Assembly: GCA_001931905.2 (NCBI GenBank)
Contig: MSJI02000812.1
Coordinates: 1 to 36,125, forward strand
DNA: 36,125 nt
Direction of reading: 5' to 3'
Origin: Cladosporium sp. IMV 00045
Taxonomy: Eukaryota > Ascomycota > Dothideomycetes > Cladosporiales > Cladosporiaceae
Shown: in pieces, positions 355 to 24,004 of the stretch
How positions within the stretch are numbered: position 1 is the stretch's first letter
How the letters are laid out: the number at the start of each line of letters is the position of its first letter
Position numbers and translations under genes: made by a program
The notes under the pieces: generated by a model
Databases searched by the model: none
Told to the model about the DNA's origin: nothing
What the model saw: the letters and a program-made list of their open reading frames with translations, nothing else

Positions 355-1710
355 ATGAAGCTCTCGACTTTCATCACAGTCACGGCCGCTGGCTTTGCCG
401 TCGCCGCGCCCATCAACCCTGTCACCCCCGGTCTGAGCGAGAAGTCGCTGACCGTCGAGCCCGCTGAGGTTTCAAGGCGTCAACTTGACCAAGTCACTGG
501 TCTTCTCTCCGGCGGTGGAGCCAGCAAGCGTCAACTCGACCAGGTTACCGGCCTCCTCTCCGGTGGCGGTGCGAGCAAGCGTCAACTCGATCAAGTTACT
601 GGCCTTCTCTCTGGCGGTGGAGCCAGCAAGCGTCAGCTCGACCAGGTTACCGGTCTTCTTTCCGGCGGTGGAGCCAGCAAGCGTCAACTCGACCAGGTCA
701 CCGGCCTCCTGTCTGGTGGTGGAGCCAGCAAGCGTCAACTCGACCAGGTCACTGGCCTTCTCTCCGGCGGCGGCGCAACCAAGCGTCAAGACGTCAGCTC
801 CCTCCTCGGCGAAGAGGAGCAGGACGACGACCTCCCCAAGGAGCCTAAAGAGCCCAAGGTCGTTTCTGGTGAGGGCGAGGACGAGTCCAAGGAAGCTCCC
901 GCTGAGGGTGAGGAAGCTCCCGCCGAGGAGACGCCTGCTGAGGGCGAGGAAGCTCCTGCCGAGGAGGCACCCGCTGAGGGCGATGACGCCGCCTCTCCCA
1001 CCGACGCCACTAGTAGCCTCGGTGGCGTCCTGAAGCGCCAGAGCATCCCCGGCCTCGACGGGCTCATGGGCGGCTCGGAGGACAAGGACGAAGATCTCCC
1101 CAAGGAGCCCAAGGAGCCCAAAGTCGTCTCCGAGGGTGAAGAGGAAGCTCCTCAAGGTCCGCCTGCCGATAAGGGTGCCGCGCCCGCTTCTAACGCAACT
1201 GAGTCTGCTCCCGCTGCTGAGTCCTCTTCTCCCGCCAGCGCCGCCGGCGGTCTTGGAGGTATCCTGAAGAAGCGCCAGAGCATCCCCGGCCTCGACAGCC
1301 TCATGGGCGGCGGGGAGGACAAGGAAAGCGACGTTCCCAAGGAGCCCAAAGAGCCCAAGGTCGTTTCCGAGGGTGACGAGAAAGCTCCCCAAGGCCCGCC
1401 TGCCGAGAAGGGTGCCGCCCCCGCTTCTAACGCGACCGAGTCCGCTCCCGCGGCTGAGTCTTCTTCTCCCGCCAGCGCCGCTGGAGGTCTTGGAGGTGTG
1501 CTCAAGGCGCGCCAGGATGACTTGGTCCCTATCAGCAAGCTCACTGGTGGTATCAAGGAGCGTCAGCTCGGCCTTGATAGCCTGCTCGGTGGCGACAAGT
1601 CTGACAAGGAGGAGAAGCCTGCTGCTGAGGAGGGTAAGCCTGCTGAGGGCAAGCCTGCTCAGGGCGGCGAGTCGCAGACTTGGGCGCCTAACGATGGCAC
1701 CAGCGCGTAG
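355..1710 (+). CDS. Secreted Kex2-processed repeat peptide precursor
   Basis: A single-exon, 451-residue protein. Residues 1-18 form a signal peptide (MKLSTF, then an Ala/Val-rich core ending VAA). A propeptide follows and ends in Arg-Arg at 41-42. Eleven units come next, each starting with Gln after Arg. Units 1-6 (residues 43-144) are QLDQVTGLLSGGGASKR repeated, with the last reading ATKR. Units 7-9 (starting at 145, 229 and 308) carry a Leu-Leu/Met-Gly core, then an acidic Pro/Glu spacer with KEPKEPK and a dibasic end. Unit 10 (387-403) and unit 11 (404-451) follow KAR and KER. There is no Cys or Tyr in the repeats. Layout matches fungal Kex2-processed repeat proteins, in which Golgi Kex2 cuts after Lys-Arg and carboxypeptidase trims the basic residues. 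A role as a secreted signal or surface peptide is inference. It is not a pheromone I recognise, and without Tyr or a DUF3328 neighbour it is unlikely to be a ustiloxin-type RiPP. Confidence 0.85.
   Translation: MKLSTFITVTAAGFAVAAPINPVTPGLSEKSLTVEPAEVSRRQLDQVTGLLSGGGASKRQLDQVTGLLSGGGASKRQLDQVTGLLSGGGASKRQLDQVTGLLSGGGASKRQLDQVTGLLSGGGASKRQLDQVTGLLSGGGATKRQDVSSLLGEEEQDDDLPKEPKEPKVVSGEGEDESKEAPAEGEEAPAEETPAEGEEAPAEEAPAEGDDAASPTDATSSLGGVLKRQSIPGLDGLMGGSEDKDEDLPKEPKEPKVVSEGEEEAPQGPPADKGAAPASNATESAPAAESSSPASAAGGLGGILKKRQSIPGLDSLMGGGEDKESDVPKEPKEPKVVSEGDEKAPQGPPAEKGAAPASNATESAPAAESSSPASAAGGLGGVLKARQDDLVPISKLTGGIKERQLGLDSLLGGDKSDKEEKPAAEEGKPAEGKPAQGGESQTWAPNDGTSA
481..786 (+). repeat. Six tandem 51-bp coding repeats
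   Basis: There are six uninterrupted 51-bp units starting at 481, 532, 583, 634, 685 and 736. Each encodes the same 17-residue peptide ending in Lys-Arg. The units differ at many third codon positions (for example CTT/CTC, CAA/CAG, GTC/GTT, ACT/ACC, GGT/GGC), but only one amino acid changes, Ser to Thr in unit 6. Confidence 0.95.
1039..1512 (+). repeat. Tandem duplication of a 79-residue coding unit
   Basis: Residues 229-307 and 308-386 of the repeat-peptide precursor are two near-identical 79-residue units (237 bp each). Each starts with QSIPGLD, carries KEPKEPKVVSEG, contains an N-glycosylation sequon (Asn-Ala-Thr) in the spacer and ends in a Gly-rich stretch before a basic site (KKR in the first, KAR in the second). 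Confidence 0.9.
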
Positions 1711-7588: not shown

Positions 7589-9607
7589 TTAGAGGCCACG
7601 ATCCTCCGACGAGAAAAAAGGCGTAGGGTTTTCGATGGAGTCTGCTGCATCTTTATCTGCCAAATCCGACTCAGGGTCCGGAGATGGCGCGGGGGTAGGC
7701 ATGCCATTCTCTTCCGAGTCGGTAGTTACAGCGCTGGGAATGAACTTGCGGCCCTGGTCGAATACCGCGCGCGTCACGGGTTCAGGTGATGCAGAAGGCG
7801 GCGGTGAGGAGAGACCATACTCCGGCTCGGGCTCGACGAGGTAGACAAGGTCAGCCCAGACTTGCCAGTGAAGTACGACGATGTGGGCAAAGCGGCGAAC
7901 GAGGTCCATGTCGGGATCGGCAGATTTTGCGGTTGCAACGGGTTCGCAAATGGCGCCCATGCCGAGGGAGTGGGTGGTCGGCGCAGAAGGCATGGGAGGA
8001 ACAAGTGCTTCTTGCAGCTCAATCGCTGTGAATTTGCAGTGCGCGTTGACGCATTGCTTGGTCTTGGGCAAAAGGCGTTCGAGCATTTGTCTCGCATGCT
8101 CACTGAAGACGGCGGACGTAGGTTCCAGATATTCCTGCAGCTTACGCTCTGCATGGCTAATCAAATCTGCGTCATACGGATTGACACGTCCTTCGAGACC
8201 TAGCACGATTCGTACAATTTCCGCAGCGACGTTCTCGATGCGCTCAGTCCAGAGACCCTGCGTACCGACAATTGCGGAGAGGGAAGAGCGCAGTCCATTC
8301 AGTGCATTGGGAATGTCGTATCTCGATGCTCCGAGTTCAATCAGCTCGATGAAGATGTCGCCGCAGATGCGTTGGCAGATCATGTTGTGCATGTCCACGC
8401 GGATGGCCCGCAAGCGTTCGAGGTCGAGGTAGAATGTAGAGGTGAGACTGGTGGTGCTTGAGCAGAAAAGCAAATCGCGCAGCAGAGAGTGCGTAATAGT
8501 GTCGAGGTAAGATGGTAGAACTCCCTCCAAGAGACCCAGGTGTTCGCATTCTTGCTCTAGCCATGACCTTGCAAGCTCCGGGTTCAATTTGCCAAGCCCG
8601 ATGCGGTGGTCGTTGTAGCGCTTCTGGAAGTTGATCGTGTCGGCAATGAGGAGCGGACGAATGTGTCTTATTTGGTGGTTTGCGACATCCAGCTTCATAT
8701 GCTCCAAAAGGTTGAGCAATTGCCGCAGACCACTGACCATGAGCTTTTGATCCGCTTGTTGTGCACCCTCAGTTATGCTCTTCCGCATCTTATCCACAAG
8801 ACCGTCCCTCATTGGTGCGCAGTGATTCTTCAGGACCTTCCCCAGCCAATTCGCAAGATCAACGAGATCGCAAACGCCGTTGTCAATTTGCTGCATAAGC
8901 AGGTCGACATCCAGTCGCTCTCTAATTTTTGCCTGATCTTGATCCGGTACGAGGGTCACGAGGATATCGCGGACCGCCTCGAAAATATTTGGTAGCCTCC
9001 TCCTGCTCTCGCGCATGAGACTTGACCAGTAATCGATGTCAGCTGCTCCGCTGTTCTGTAAGCGCGTCCTTTGCACGAGATCCAGCATGTACAGCTCCGC
9101 TTCCAGCGCTTTCCAGTAGTCGTTCGCCGATTGAATCTTCTGCTGGCCTCGCGCACCGTCCAGATTAGGCCTGAAATGTAGTTCGCGGTCGAAATTGACG
9201 TCATGGCGGAGTTTCGGGTTGTTGATGATCCTGGGCATGTCGAGTTCGGCGAGAGAATCGGGTGTTATGGGCGGCAGTACTGAAGCATCGCGGAACGCTA
9301 CAAGGAGGTCTGCACCGCGGGGACCGCTGGCGAGTAGGTGCTTCTCAATCTCCGCTTGGATGTCGTGCTCTTGAGGCGTGTTCATTGATTGGGACTTTGT
9401 TGATGTGGGTTCTGAGAAATCGGCTTCGAATTGCGCTGAACTCATGGACCCAGTGACGTGGTTCATGTTGTCACAAGGATTAGAGGATCTCCTGATCTTG
9501 TTACGACCTTGTGACTTTCTGGAATTATTGTTGTCGTGAATTGCGGGCGAGGCAGCAGGTGCCTTTTCACGATTGGGCATGCTGTTTGTGTTGGCTGTGG
9601 GTGCCAT
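7589..9607 (-). CDS. SOK1: Tcp11 / Sok1 family protein
   Basis: A single-exon gene. The ATG at 9607 (good context, AACATGG) gives 672 residues; the frame continues open to 9724 but without another ATG. Residues 1-90 are low complexity, with Asn, Ser and Pro. The region from about 90 to 580 is helical and matches the T-complex protein 11 family (for example FRDASVLPPITPDSLAELD, the DYWKALEAELYMLDLVQ region, and LANWLGKVLKNHCAPMRD). The C-terminal 80 residues are acidic and Pro/Ser-rich. In budding yeast Sok1 was found as a dosage suppressor of protein kinase A loss; the biochemical role is not established. It converges with the 2EXR gene and has a gene-free upstream region of 3.2 kb. Confidence 0.85.
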   Translation of the reverse strand: MAPTANTNSMPNREKAPAASPAIHDNNNSRKSQGRNKIRRSSNPCDNMNHVTGSMSSAQFEADFSEPTSTKSQSMNTPQEHDIQAEIEKHLLASGPRGADLLVAFRDASVLPPITPDSLAELDMPRIINNPKLRHDVNFDRELHFRPNLDGARGQQKIQSANDYWKALEAELYMLDLVQRTRLQNSGAADIDYWSSLMRESRRRLPNIFEAVRDILVTLVPDQDQAKIRERLDVDLLMQQIDNGVCDLVDLANWLGKVLKNHCAPMRDGLVDKMRKSITEGAQQADQKLMVSGLRQLLNLLEHMKLDVANHQIRHIRPLLIADTINFQKRYNDHRIGLGKLNPELARSWLEQECEHLGLLEGVLPSYLDTITHSLLRDLLFCSSTTSLTSTFYLDLERLRAIRVDMHNMICQRICGDIFIELIELGASRYDIPNALNGLRSSLSAIVGTQGLWTERIENVAAEIVRIVLGLEGRVNPYDADLISHAERKLQEYLEPTSAVFSEHARQMLERLLPKTKQCVNAHCKFTAIELQEALVPPMPSAPTTHSLGMGAICEPVATAKSADPDMDLVRRFAHIVVLHWQVWADLVYLVEPEPEYGLSSPPPSASPEPVTRAVFDQGRKFIPSAVTTDSEENGMPTPAPSPDPESDLADKDAADSIENPTPFFSSEDRGL

Positions 9608-12600
9608 GTTTGTTGATTGTGAGAGCACTCGCTGGGCTTTTACAGACAGATTTTGTTGATCTTGCCGCAAGGGCGCCGCGACAGTGAATGCTTCTTGCAG
9701 ACGGAAAGTGAAAGCCAGCTGCAACCGAAAGAAATGACGTGTCTAGAACCGGCAGGTAAGACCTGATCAGAAGAAAAGCGAGCGAGCGAGCGATCAAAGA
9801 GACAGGTCGAAAAGCAGACAACCGCCCAATATGCGCTTGCAATTAAAACAGCCTGGGAACACGCATCAGCAAAAGCGCCGAAGTGACACGGGTGAAACGA
9901 GCACAGCATATGGTCGTTGAAACGGAAAGCCGCATGAAGCATGCTGGTGTTCCTCAAGGCCACGATGCCATGAAGGTGCGATCTGAGAACCGGGAATGGA
10001 ATGTTCTGAGCGTACCTCTGTGCTGGCTTCGGCGTGGACAGACTGTTGTGGTTCTGAGGTCTGAGATAGCCGCAAGCAGCTGGTGTGACGGAGGTCGGAT
10101 TAGAGCACAAAGAAAGCGTCGATGGGATGAAACGAGTGTGAACACAGATCGTGCGCTGTGAGTCGCAAGTAGCGGGGCGAGAGGACGACCTGTGTTCTGG
10201 TGGCGATCGAACCGGAAGGAAAGTGAGGTGGCGATACAACGGTATAGAGACAGAGAACGAAGGTAGCGAGAAGTGTTCAAAGGAAACGCAGGTGTAGACG
10301 GAGCGGCACGGGAAGGAAAGTGGAAGTGGGAGAAAGAAAGAGAGGATCGTCTGCTCACGTCACCCGCCGTGAGAGAGTGCGGTAGAGTGAGATGCACGCA
10401 GCAGTCGAGGCAAGGAAGGTCTGGTGTGGTGGTTAGGGTACATTATTACGGTTACGGGGTGGTCCAGCAGGCGCAGATGTTGGATGTGCACGCTGCATGG
10501 ACTCCTTGCATCAGGGGGGTCCGCTGGCTGTCTCACTGCAACGACAGAGAGTGTCAGCGATGGCGGCGGCGGCGACGGCGGCGGCGGGATGACGCCAAGG
10601 GCAGAATGGGTAAGGTAGAGGCAGGCCGAGCGGTCTGCTGGGCGGAAGAAGAAGTTTTTTTGCAGTGCTGATAGTCCGATCTGCTGCTGCTGCAGGAACA
10701 AGTGCACGCGAAGAGAGACTGGTGTGCGGATAGCGGCCGGCGTGCATGAGACAACCATGGATATGGCTGGAAAGACTTGCAAAGAACATCCTGCCGAGAG
10801 ATGCTTTGGCATTCATTCCCGAGACTTATCCGTGAAACCATTCTCGCCATCCTTCTCACGATTGCAGAGAGAGAGGACGGGAGAAGCCGTCACCGCTCCT
10901 TCCTGAAGAATACTTCCATGTCGATGTTTGTGAAGTCAAGCCTGCGCACGCAGGGATATCACCATGTAGCGACATCTCGTCTTCCACTCGATGATTTATC
11001 CTTTACTCTGATAGTACATGCATATGTACCTGATCCCCATGCATGCATACATGCAGTTCTCGCCTTCCATGTCAGCTGATTCGCTTCTAGATGTATTTGT
11101 TTCACATCATCGGTAACCATGCCTTCCCGCGAATACATATATTAAGGCCTTGTATCGTTTGCGAGGCATTCCCAGCCCACTACTGTCTCCCGTCTCAAAC
11201 CTACCCGGCTACGCCAATGCACCTACGGCCTGCGATTTTGGGTTATGCGACCACATGCCAGCGCGCTGCAATAATTTCGGCTCCTCATTTGCTTCTGCGC
11301 GCCGCCAACGGCTATGCATGAACACCTATATTTACAATCTGCCGTTTGCCACTCGCCTCCCTGCTGATCTGAGGCAGCTTTCGGTGTCACCGCCGCCTGC
11401 GCTGAGCTGAGTCGACTGCACTGTATACTTTACATGCGCGTATGCGACCATGTATGCCTATAAGACCACGCTTTCCCGCATGAAATTTGCCTCTCACACT
11501 CACCGAATTCCTGGTCGGAATCACATTCGGGTTTCTGCGCCTTCACCTCCGTACCACGCAACAGTACGGCGTCCGCATGCGTGCGCATTATGATTGCCAC
11601 TCGGCCTCCCGTCCCTCGTGACTCGCTCGTTCGCTCAAGCCGGCATTCGCTCCGCGTTAACCACCTTTTAATCTCGCTCAGGCACGCCTGACCGTGGCCG
11701 ACGCTGTCATGCTGCGCTTAACCGGACTTCCCACAAGCATCACCCGGCACAGACGAATGGTCACTCTGCCAACAGCGTCAGCGTCATCGTTGTTATGTGC
11801 CTCCGCAGCTACTCTAAGGCTGACCGCCTGGAACATGTGATGAATCGTGCAGCAAACGCCGGCTTGAAGGATCGGGTACAGAAACGTGAGGCAAGTCGCA
11901 ATTTGCCATACAAGGCGAACGTTGAACGTGGTTTCGCCTCGCCTTTTCTGCGCCTTACAATCATTCTCACCAGTCAACACGTGAAACCTGGCGCAAAGCT
12001 GCATGGAGGATACAAAACTTTGTAGCCGGACCAAAACTATTACTCACGCATACTACCTGCATTCATTACCACGGTCCTGCGGTCGCCATCACAAACAATG
12101 ATTTGAAATCTTCGGTACCATGTCCAAACTCATATATCGACCTTACCAAACCTGCCTGCATACGAGTCAACATTTGTTGAGAGGCGAAGCCTTGTACACA
12201 GTACAGTACAAGTGAGCATCGTGCTCGCCGGACGCAGACGTCGTGCTCAATATGCTCATGGCTGACGCACACGTGAAATATACACCACATATCGCAGTAG
12301 CTGCTGGCATACAAATCGTTTTCTATAAGCACCAGCTCCGCGATCGGAACTTCACTTGCTCATACGCAGAGCGTCGTCAGCATGCGAGTGCATGCAATAC
12401 ATTGAGTACTTATGAGAGGACCCAATTGGCAGAAGCTCGCAGCAACCTCGGACTACGCCACGTGTAGACGGTACAGTAACCAGTCAGACCTATCAAAGCA
12501 CCTCTGAAATCCTAATCGACCATCCGGCATAACAGAAACGCGCTATGAGAGATCAAAAATACGGTACGGCAATGCAATGCCACCATAATCTACTCACAGC

Positions 12601-22658: not shown

Positions 22659-23210
22659 TCAGCCACTGCCGAGTCTGGTGTGTCCAGAAGTGTTGCGAGA
22701 GTGGTAGCTGCGGGTTCTCTGGTGCTGCTTGATGTATGCAGGCGCCATGATGAAATCACCGACCGTTTGCTTGGACCGGGCACGTGTGTGCTGAAGGCGA
22801 GAGTAGTTCCTGTTGTGCTTGGGAGTCCAACCTGAGCGGCTGGACTTGTTCCTGAAGTGTGAACGTGCTGGGGTCGTCACACTTTCGGCAGCAGAGTGCT
22901 CTGGGATGGCACCAGCGGCCATGTGCTCCGGTATAGTGAACTGCGACAATCTCTTAGGAAGCGACAGCCTGTTGGTCCAAACTGGACGAGAGAAGTTGAA
23001 TTGGATAGCAGTGCCGGTAATTGGAGTGTCAGGAACAGTCGGTGCAGTAGCCGGTCGAGGAAGAGACAAGTGTTTCTCGTTTAGCTCTTCCACCTCCTCC
23101 GGTGAGCGAATGAAGCGGTTGTAGCAGTAGGCAATAAGGAAAGCAACAGCGATGGAGCAAGTCAATACGGCGAAGATTAGGCCGAGCAGCAGGCCCCAGT
23201 TGGTGGACAT
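22659..23210 (-). CDS. Single-pass membrane protein of unknown function
   Basis: The ATG at 23210 gives 183 residues. A strong hydrophobic helix lies at about residues 4-28 (WGLLLGLIFAVLTCSIAVAFLI). The rest is polar, with a Glu-rich juxtamembrane segment (SPEEVEELNEKH) and a long Ser/Arg/His-rich tail with RTRSYHSRNTSGH near the end, typical of a disordered, possibly phosphorylated cytosolic tail. The frame is open upstream to 23405, but that part covers a direct repeat and reads like translated leader, so the later ATG was chosen. No family is recognised. It is divergent from MTR4. Confidence 0.6.
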   Translation of the reverse strand: MSTNWGLLLGLIFAVLTCSIAVAFLIAYCYNRFIRSPEEVEELNEKHLSLPRPATAPTVPDTPITGTAIQFNFSRPVWTNRLSLPKRLSQFTIPEHMAAGAIPEHSAAESVTTPARSHFRNKSSRSGWTPKHNRNYSRLQHTRARSKQTVGDFIMAPAYIKQHQRTRSYHSRNTSGHTRLGSG

Positions 23211-24004
23211 TGTGAATGAGTGTAGTAAAGACTGTCTGAGGTGAGTAGAGACAACAAGTAAAGACTGTCTGAGTGAGTAGAGACAACAAGAGAACAAGCA
23301 GAAATGAGTGATTAGAGAATGTGATGAGAGTAAGAGACAGTAATGAAACAGAGTGAGAGCAGTAGGTATTTGAAGTCGACGAAGCCTACCTTCGATTCCC
23401 CCCATGATGGGCGTTCGCCTCTATCAGGCGTAAGATTTGCTCGACGGTGTTGGGCGAGCGGTTTGCGTGGAAGAATGAGATGTCTAATGAGGCGTCAACG
23501 ATGTCTCGCCGGCATCAGGCGCAGAGTAGGACGGAAACGGTGAAGAGCGAGCACATCGCAAATGCGAGCGTTGACCAAGTGAGTACAACGACGGATGCAT
23601 GCGTTGGCGAGTGGGCACAGAATAATTGGCATCGTTGAAGAATGACGGCGATGCAAGCTTGAAGAGAGACACGGCGTCTTAACAGAGGCTATATTCATTA
23701 GATCGAGTGAGATGAAGACGGTGCGAATCCACAACGTCTGGCGGCCTCAGGCCCTTCATCTCTTCCAACCCCAACTTCACCTTCTCTTCCACACTTCCCG
23801 ATTCAGCTCGATCTACGCCATCAGCGGCAACTACGCGCGTGCCGTGCCGTCAACCTTAACTGTACAATCTTTACTGTTCCATTTTATGGAAACGCCCTCA
23901 TCTTTGCCAACGCCTTTGCAATCTGGTCGATCGCAATCCACCCGCGCGCCCACACAGCAGCGCGCAGCTTTGAATTCAGCGACACCCGTTCTGGTCACCT
24001 GACC
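23211..24004. other. Divergent promoter region, membrane protein and MTR4
   Basis: This region contains the leader of the reverse gene, with a 33/32-bp direct repeat at 23224-23288, and the MTR4 promoter. The last 300 bases before MTR4 are pyrimidine-rich. No protein-like frame is seen. Confidence 0.5.
23224..23288. repeat. Direct repeat, two copies of 33 and 32 bp
   Basis: The copies at 23224-23256 and 23257-23288 are adjacent. Both begin AGTAAAGACTGTCTGAG and end GAGTAGAGACAACA, and they differ by one G in the middle. They sit in the presumed 5' leader of the reverse-strand membrane protein. Confidence 0.85.

Follow-up and report, generated by a model that had tools for sequence, protein, structure and literature searches.

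A putative Kex2-processed repeat protein of the Cladosporium lineage and the 15-residue peptide that it repeats

Introduction

What would be released from a fungal protein made of a hydrophobic start and eleven units set off by basic residues, and what might such products be for? The question is raised by a locus of Cladosporium sp. IMV 00045, whose genus ranks with the most common moulds of the air and of leaf surfaces. The whole stretch of DNA that was analysed (36,125 nucleotides, hereafter the window) carries near its start a gene that a first-pass annotation had assigned to the Kex2-processed repeat proteins (KEPs). It predicted one 15-residue peptide in six copies, the last ending AT, plus five related peptides, took the sequence for neither a pheromone nor a known ribosomally made and modified product (RiPP), although the RiPP class was suggested, and proposed a possible new peptide family.

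KEPs have been delimited by two surveys. The pipeline outlined in Le Marquer 2019 (PMC6339444) combines a SignalP secretion signal, the absence of a TMHMM membrane span, at least four fragments after KR/RR cutting, of which at least three are similar, and a motif covering at least 15% of the length. Umemura 2020 (PMC7329392), whose survey reports 7878 KEPs, requires three or more tandem repeats between Kex2 sites, each 8 to 100 aa long. The characterised KEP peptides mentioned in PMC9769878 include mating factors, virulence factors and mutualism modulators.

Organisation of the gene and its cleavage sites

The gene is a single intact open reading frame without internal stop, and it can be divided into the following parts:

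355..1710, plus strand: KEX2-processed repeat protein precursor (putative), single open frame, 451 aa
355..405, plus strand: signal-peptide-like N-terminus, residues 1-17, from hydropathy; predicted cut site from the AxA rule
406..480, plus strand: propeptide, residues 18-42, 25 aa, C-terminal SRR; boundary holds if the signal ends at residue 17
481..786, plus strand: six 17-residue units (15-mer + KR), starting at 481, 532, 583, 634, 685 and 736
787..1032, plus strand: unit 7, with 82 aa and a charge of -24; KR comes next
1039..1266, plus strand: unit 8, with 76 aa and a charge of -10; KKR comes next; duplicated in tandem as unit 9
1276..1512, plus strand: unit 9, 79 aa, the last three being the non-dibasic KAR
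1513..1563, plus strand: unit 10, 17 residues, the last three being the non-dibasic KER
1564..1707, plus strand: unit 11, 48-aa C-terminus, with the sole Trp of the protein

By hydropathy alone, the only strong hydrophobic stretch of the precursor is its N-terminus, which ends AVA/APIN (15-residue mean of 1.91 from residue 6, at most 0.74 beyond residue 25). The protein contains no Tyr, His or Cys and its Phe is confined to the signal region; many units are rich in Gly, Ala and Leu, and the long ones are highly acidic. A structure model (9 sequences, mean pLDDT 46.9) shows no confident fold, which is expected for a precursor destined for cutting. An antisense frame (472-1845) overlaps the gene and leaves the silent-change pattern of the repeat, described below, unexplained.

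The precursor holds 12 Arg, and Gln follows all of them except R41, the first of an RR pair, which gives 11 unit starts. Nine of these come after KR, RR or KKR, and the other two after KAR (R386) and KER (R403), neither of which is a classic Kex2 site. When the tandem copies are aligned, the KKR of unit 8 matches the KAR of unit 9, so that the KAR site looks eroded or never completed; some Kex2 cleavage with other residues at P2 is on record (PMC2515848). At most 11 products are predicted, or 9 by strict dibasic cutting. Eleven units each following a basic site had been proposed, and this stands in so far as every start follows an Arg, nine of them at dibasic sites; cleavage at all eleven is an overstatement, as KAR and KER are not dibasic. 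The 'five related peptides' have to be revised, as they are mostly unlike the 15-mer: three acidic units of 82, 76 and 79 aa, a 17-residue unit and the 48-aa C-terminus.

Measured against the two surveys, the precursor has nine dibasic sites and six near-identical units where Le Marquer 2019 looks for fragments, and 6 x 15 of its 451 residues (20%) where a minimum share of the length is set; its six 15-aa units also fall under the definition of Umemura 2020, judged by the stated criteria rather than by the scoring code of that paper. As read from the translated frame, the repeats and cleavage sites therefore place it among the KEPs of both surveys, as first annotated. It shares with them (PMC6339444, PMC7329392) a start that by hydropathy resembles a secretion signal and near-identical short units between KR sites, and differs in the long acidic units added behind the short repeats.

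Selection on the 15-residue peptide

The six short units measure 51 bp each and are all KR-terminated; five encode QLDQVTGLLSGGGAS and the sixth ends GGGAT, exactly as had been annotated. Among the six, 15 of the 51 columns vary, 14 of them at third positions and synonymous, the remaining one being an S/T change. Units differ by a mean of 7.5 nucleotides per pair, and the 15 unit pairs add up to 108 synonymous against 5 nonsynonymous codon differences, all 5 due to that single S/T. When 15 changes were placed at random 20,000 times, the nonsynonymous ones numbered 10.98 on average and never fewer than 5, against 1 observed; the null is rough, as columns are treated as single independent changes, and the contrast is large nonetheless. 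With 14 of 15 variable columns silent, the 15-mer peptide is held by selection, and the observed value below the chance minimum indicates that the frame is real and the repeat beyond chance. By this measure the repeat is old enough for silent changes to have accumulated while it was held at the protein level.

A family of relatives with a common layout

A search with the whole protein, which scored the 7992 candidates with the most words in common, returned at least 8 proteins, and a second with residues 1-50 of relative P0004 returned 18, P0004 itself included. Combined, they give 20 distinct relatives (P0002-P0021), and the two that are named to organism, P0004 and P0015, are both from Cladosporium. 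P0008, the most distant, has a doubtful N-terminal extension, and P0010 appears frame-shifted near its end. The relatives share one layout: a prepro region, one zone with short units and another with long acidic ones. In 19 of the 20 the first dibasic site is found at residue 39 or 42, and in trimmed P0008 at 46. Across the 21 proteins, 105 of 137 dibasic sites are followed by Gln, a count that includes the doubtful extension of P0008 and the odd tail of P0010. Every relative has at least one unit over 40 aa. With P0010 excluded and P0008 trimmed, 64 of these 67 long units begin with Gln, and a Gly/Leu motif, a pattern picked after viewing the sequences, ends 56 of them.

The short-unit zone is far more variable. 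Counted by eye, at least three similar tandem short units occur in three relatives (P0002, P0003 and P0008), two in eight and no repeated ones in nine, so that amplification is not family-wide; the window gene, with six, is the most amplified in comparison with all 20. Identity to the window protein averages 0.57 over the prepro region and 0.41 for the best-matching short unit, and in seven proteins tandem copies of one motif within a gene are 0.82-1.0 alike, against 0.21-0.43 for other short-unit pairs. On this comparison the short peptide differs between relatives, as well as between the two copies in the genome described below, and is near-uniform where it is repeated within a gene. The pattern fits a peptide that diverges between lineages yet stays uniform inside each array, and gene conversion with subsequent purifying selection could account for it.

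The precursor and the 4 relatives that were scanned have no Pfam match. In the literature, six peptide strings of the family returned no paper, and searches combining Cladosporium with Kex2 or secreted peptides gave nothing on the family in the titles or abstract openings of the matches listed. The portions consulted of PMC8329847 and PMC12048977 hold nothing on this precursor family, and the motif of the 15-mer is absent from the conserved KEP motifs named in the text of PMC6339444. At the level of sequence, 20 relatives, five proteins without a Pfam match and the lack of any mention in the papers searched support the suggested novelty: the gene apparently belongs to a Cladosporium-lineage peptide family that is undescribed so far.

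Genomic context and the second copy

The assembly comprises 49.9 Mb in 954 contigs. Contig C84 encodes precursor residues 1-298 without a difference (100% identity) and then ends, which we read as an assembly overlap and not as a second gene. A second copy lies on C475 and C556, where the contig ends cut it off within its second unit; its peptide reads QLDQVTKLVSGAGSS and differs from the 15-mer at 4 of 15 residues. One of the changes, Gly to Lys, is present in both visible units of this copy with different Lys codons. Over the 68 codons shared with the window gene there are 18 silent and 10 amino-acid differences. Upstream of the gene, the identity between C84 and C475 is 89-90% for the greater part of the stretch and 82% close to the gene; between C475 and C556 it is 100% in the last 10 kb and 94.4% in the preceding 10 kb. 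Downstream, a single high-identity match was obtained for a DnaJ-like fragment and likewise for the MTR4 gene. The diverged upstream copies could reflect a hybrid, partial duplication of the genome or a mixed sample.

In the window, a Pfam scan of 10 proteins gave matches above the curated cut-offs for DUF1977 (in the DnaJ-like gene), Tcp11, a family-28 glycosyltransferase, Cut8, an MTR4-type helicase and a PP2C phosphatase, the last of which appears as two frames; 2EXR/DUF7730 and EamA are slightly below their cut-offs. Two of the neighbours are located as follows:

7589-9724 of the window: Tcp11-like protein
L014 6196-7332 (contig C84), about 1.8 kb before the start codon: MBOAT_2 acyltransferase-like gene

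In a search with the Tcp11-like protein (120 of 881 matches listed), the closest match with an organism name comes from Cladosporium fusiforme at 80% identity, and the next named one stands at 52%; as C. fusiforme is a member of the Cladosporiaceae (Dothideomycetes), this points to Cladosporium or a close relative as the origin of the window. The MBOAT_2 gene is the nearest upstream listed frame of at least 120 aa, and a 239-aa frame without Pfam match and a WD40 protein are also found upstream on C84. It was considered as a peptide acyltransferase for the precursor and set aside, adjacency being its sole support. A rough scan of 125,895 bases (the window, the rest of its contig C809, C84 and the ends of C475 and C556, overlaps included) detected no second KEP-like gene: its matches were copies of the precursor gene and an out-of-frame shadow of its repeat. 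In viral contigs, 23 stretches matched a search pattern and none encoded a relative. A scan for sigma-70 promoters and terminators, which is unsuited to fungi, was empty. Elsewhere in the window, a unit of about 32 bp is repeated 2.1 times with 97% match (23224-23290), near the start of a minus-strand frame (22659-23405).

Outside these contigs, the P_proprotein domain of Kex2-type proteases (PF01483) is found at two places on contig C230 (8001-13000 and 27001-32000), about 19 kb apart and 93.4% identical over 4.9 kb; the pair could stem from segmental duplication or be an artefact of the assembly. PF05096, the glutaminyl cyclase family, has no match in the genome, so that any pyroglutamate would need spontaneous formation or another type of enzyme.

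What the products may be

The best explanation is that the gene encodes a secreted KEP of the Cladosporium lineage that would release linear peptides, of which the 15-mer is the likely active one; we put this at a probability of roughly two in three, with secretion, cleavage, pyroglutamate, activity and target all predicted. The signal peptide would direct the precursor into the secretory pathway, Kex2 would cut after the dibasic sites and a Kex1-type carboxypeptidase would remove the KR. This would release six linear 15-mers (five identical, one ending AT) together with several long, acidic and disordered units. The calculated [M+H]+ of the 15-mer is 1402.717 with free Gln and 1385.691 as pyroglutamate, and that of the AT form 1416.733 and 1399.706, respectively. 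The N-terminal Gln of the products would probably cyclise to pyroglutamate, protecting them from aminopeptidases, as the N-terminal Gln of KEP peptides is found as pyroglutamate in Coprinopsis and Pichia according to PMC9769878. The repeated 15-mer is the probable active product because it is constant within the gene and its counterparts vary from one relative to the next, as would be expected of a secreted cue or interaction peptide. The Coprinopsis cinerea KEP peptides offer a parallel, being linear and in many cases bearing an N-terminal Gln that becomes pyroglutamate; the ones quoted in PMC9769878, a study that also expressed Coprinopsis KEPs in Pichia pastoris, have other sequences and come from another phylum.

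A doubtful alternative is that the products are structural or surface-active and coat hyphae or spores, which would make this a cell-surface gene and not a signal. The model would be Rep1 of Ustilago maydis, likewise a Kex2-cut, multi-unit, repetitive secreted precursor, whose products are described as water repellents that form amyloid-like fibrils (PMC7329392, PMC9769878), and the richness of many units in Gly, Ala and Leu and the acidity of the long units agree with such a role. However, the hydrophobic moment of the 15-mer (charge -1) does not exceed that of shuffled versions, with p = 0.33 as helix and p = 0.29 as strand, and no significant amphipathicity is seen, in a comparison that relies on the description of Rep1. 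For the second-copy variant the helix test gave p = 0.027, a single nominal value out of 20 tests, to which no weight was given. A membrane-active, amphipathic peptide was rejected on these same values.

In a quite unlikely reading, function lies with the long acidic units, and the short peptides from the N-terminal side are by-products or spacers. Long units are indeed universal among the relatives and almost always Gln-initial, and a repeated short unit is missing in nine of the 20. Against this, the 15-mer has remained identical despite the nucleotide differences between its units, whereas the duplicated long units 8 and 9, with 54 codons the same, 15 synonymous and 10 nonsynonymous out of 79, are by these counts less constrained than the 15-mer.

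A diverged alpha-type mating pheromone of the lineage is a highly unlikely identity. Ascomycete precursors of this type have the same plan (a signal peptide, Kex2-cut repeats and linear products), the STE2 pheromone receptor family has matches on contigs C768 and C464, and the canonical pheromone gene was not recovered by two DNA patterns. The first pattern gave no match (backwards control: 1 forward, 1 reverse), and the second gave 7 against 5 in the control, none of the 7 within a frame that has repeated KR-flanked units. Nevertheless, the marks that PMC6339444 describes for alpha-pheromones of Dothideomycetes are two conserved Cys or a PYGxPxG core, and a Ste13 signature XA/XP after the Kex2 site. 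The window precursor has neither Cys pair nor core, and its units start QL, QD or QS in place of XA/XP. The pheromone was set aside on core motif and Ste13 signature, in line with the earlier judgement.

Equally remote is a dikaritin-like RiPP precursor with peptides cyclised by UstYa-type enzymes. The dikaritins ustiloxin, phomopsin and victorin also derive from secreted precursors with repeated, Kex2-cut cores, and the genome holds four UstYa matches (DUF3328, PF11807). These lie on C46, C678, C783 and C784, and none on C809, C84, C475 or C556, the contigs of the window gene copies; the linkage scan took in about 14 kb upstream on C84 and longer upstream stretches for the second copy only. 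Furthermore, the protein lacks the Tyr, His and Cys already mentioned, and its sole Trp is in unit 11. Tyr is the residue at which dikaritin cores are usually cyclised; as it occurs in 65.6% of UstYa-linked KEPs (PMC7329392), it is common rather than universal in them. The missing Tyr and the missing UstYa linkage together led us to set the dikaritin aside, and they leave the suggested RiPP class unsupported.

Implications for the Cladosporium lineage

If the gene is a secreted KEP with the 15-mer as its active product, its role can be approached by analogy. Knockouts of six Coprinopsis KEPs had no apparent phenotype in pure culture, as reported in PMC9769878, and by analogy with that study a role towards neighbours is weakly favoured, with low confidence, over an essential function in the fungus itself. 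A more specific proposal, which we regard as unlikely, is that peptides diverging between lineages, uniform within each gene and capped by pyroglutamate would act as a lineage-identity cue in the sensing of self or neighbours, through a receptor distinct from that of the mating pheromone.

Should the peptide prove inert, it would be one more orphan KEP among thousands. The occurrence of the family in several members of the Cladosporium lineage would nevertheless provide a defined molecule that can be synthesised to probe the roles of orphan KEP peptides, and the two diverged copies in one genome, together with relatives carrying other cores, supply natural variants for this purpose. With fewer than three similar short units each, most relatives lie below the repeat thresholds of both KEP surveys, which suggests that families of this kind are under-counted.
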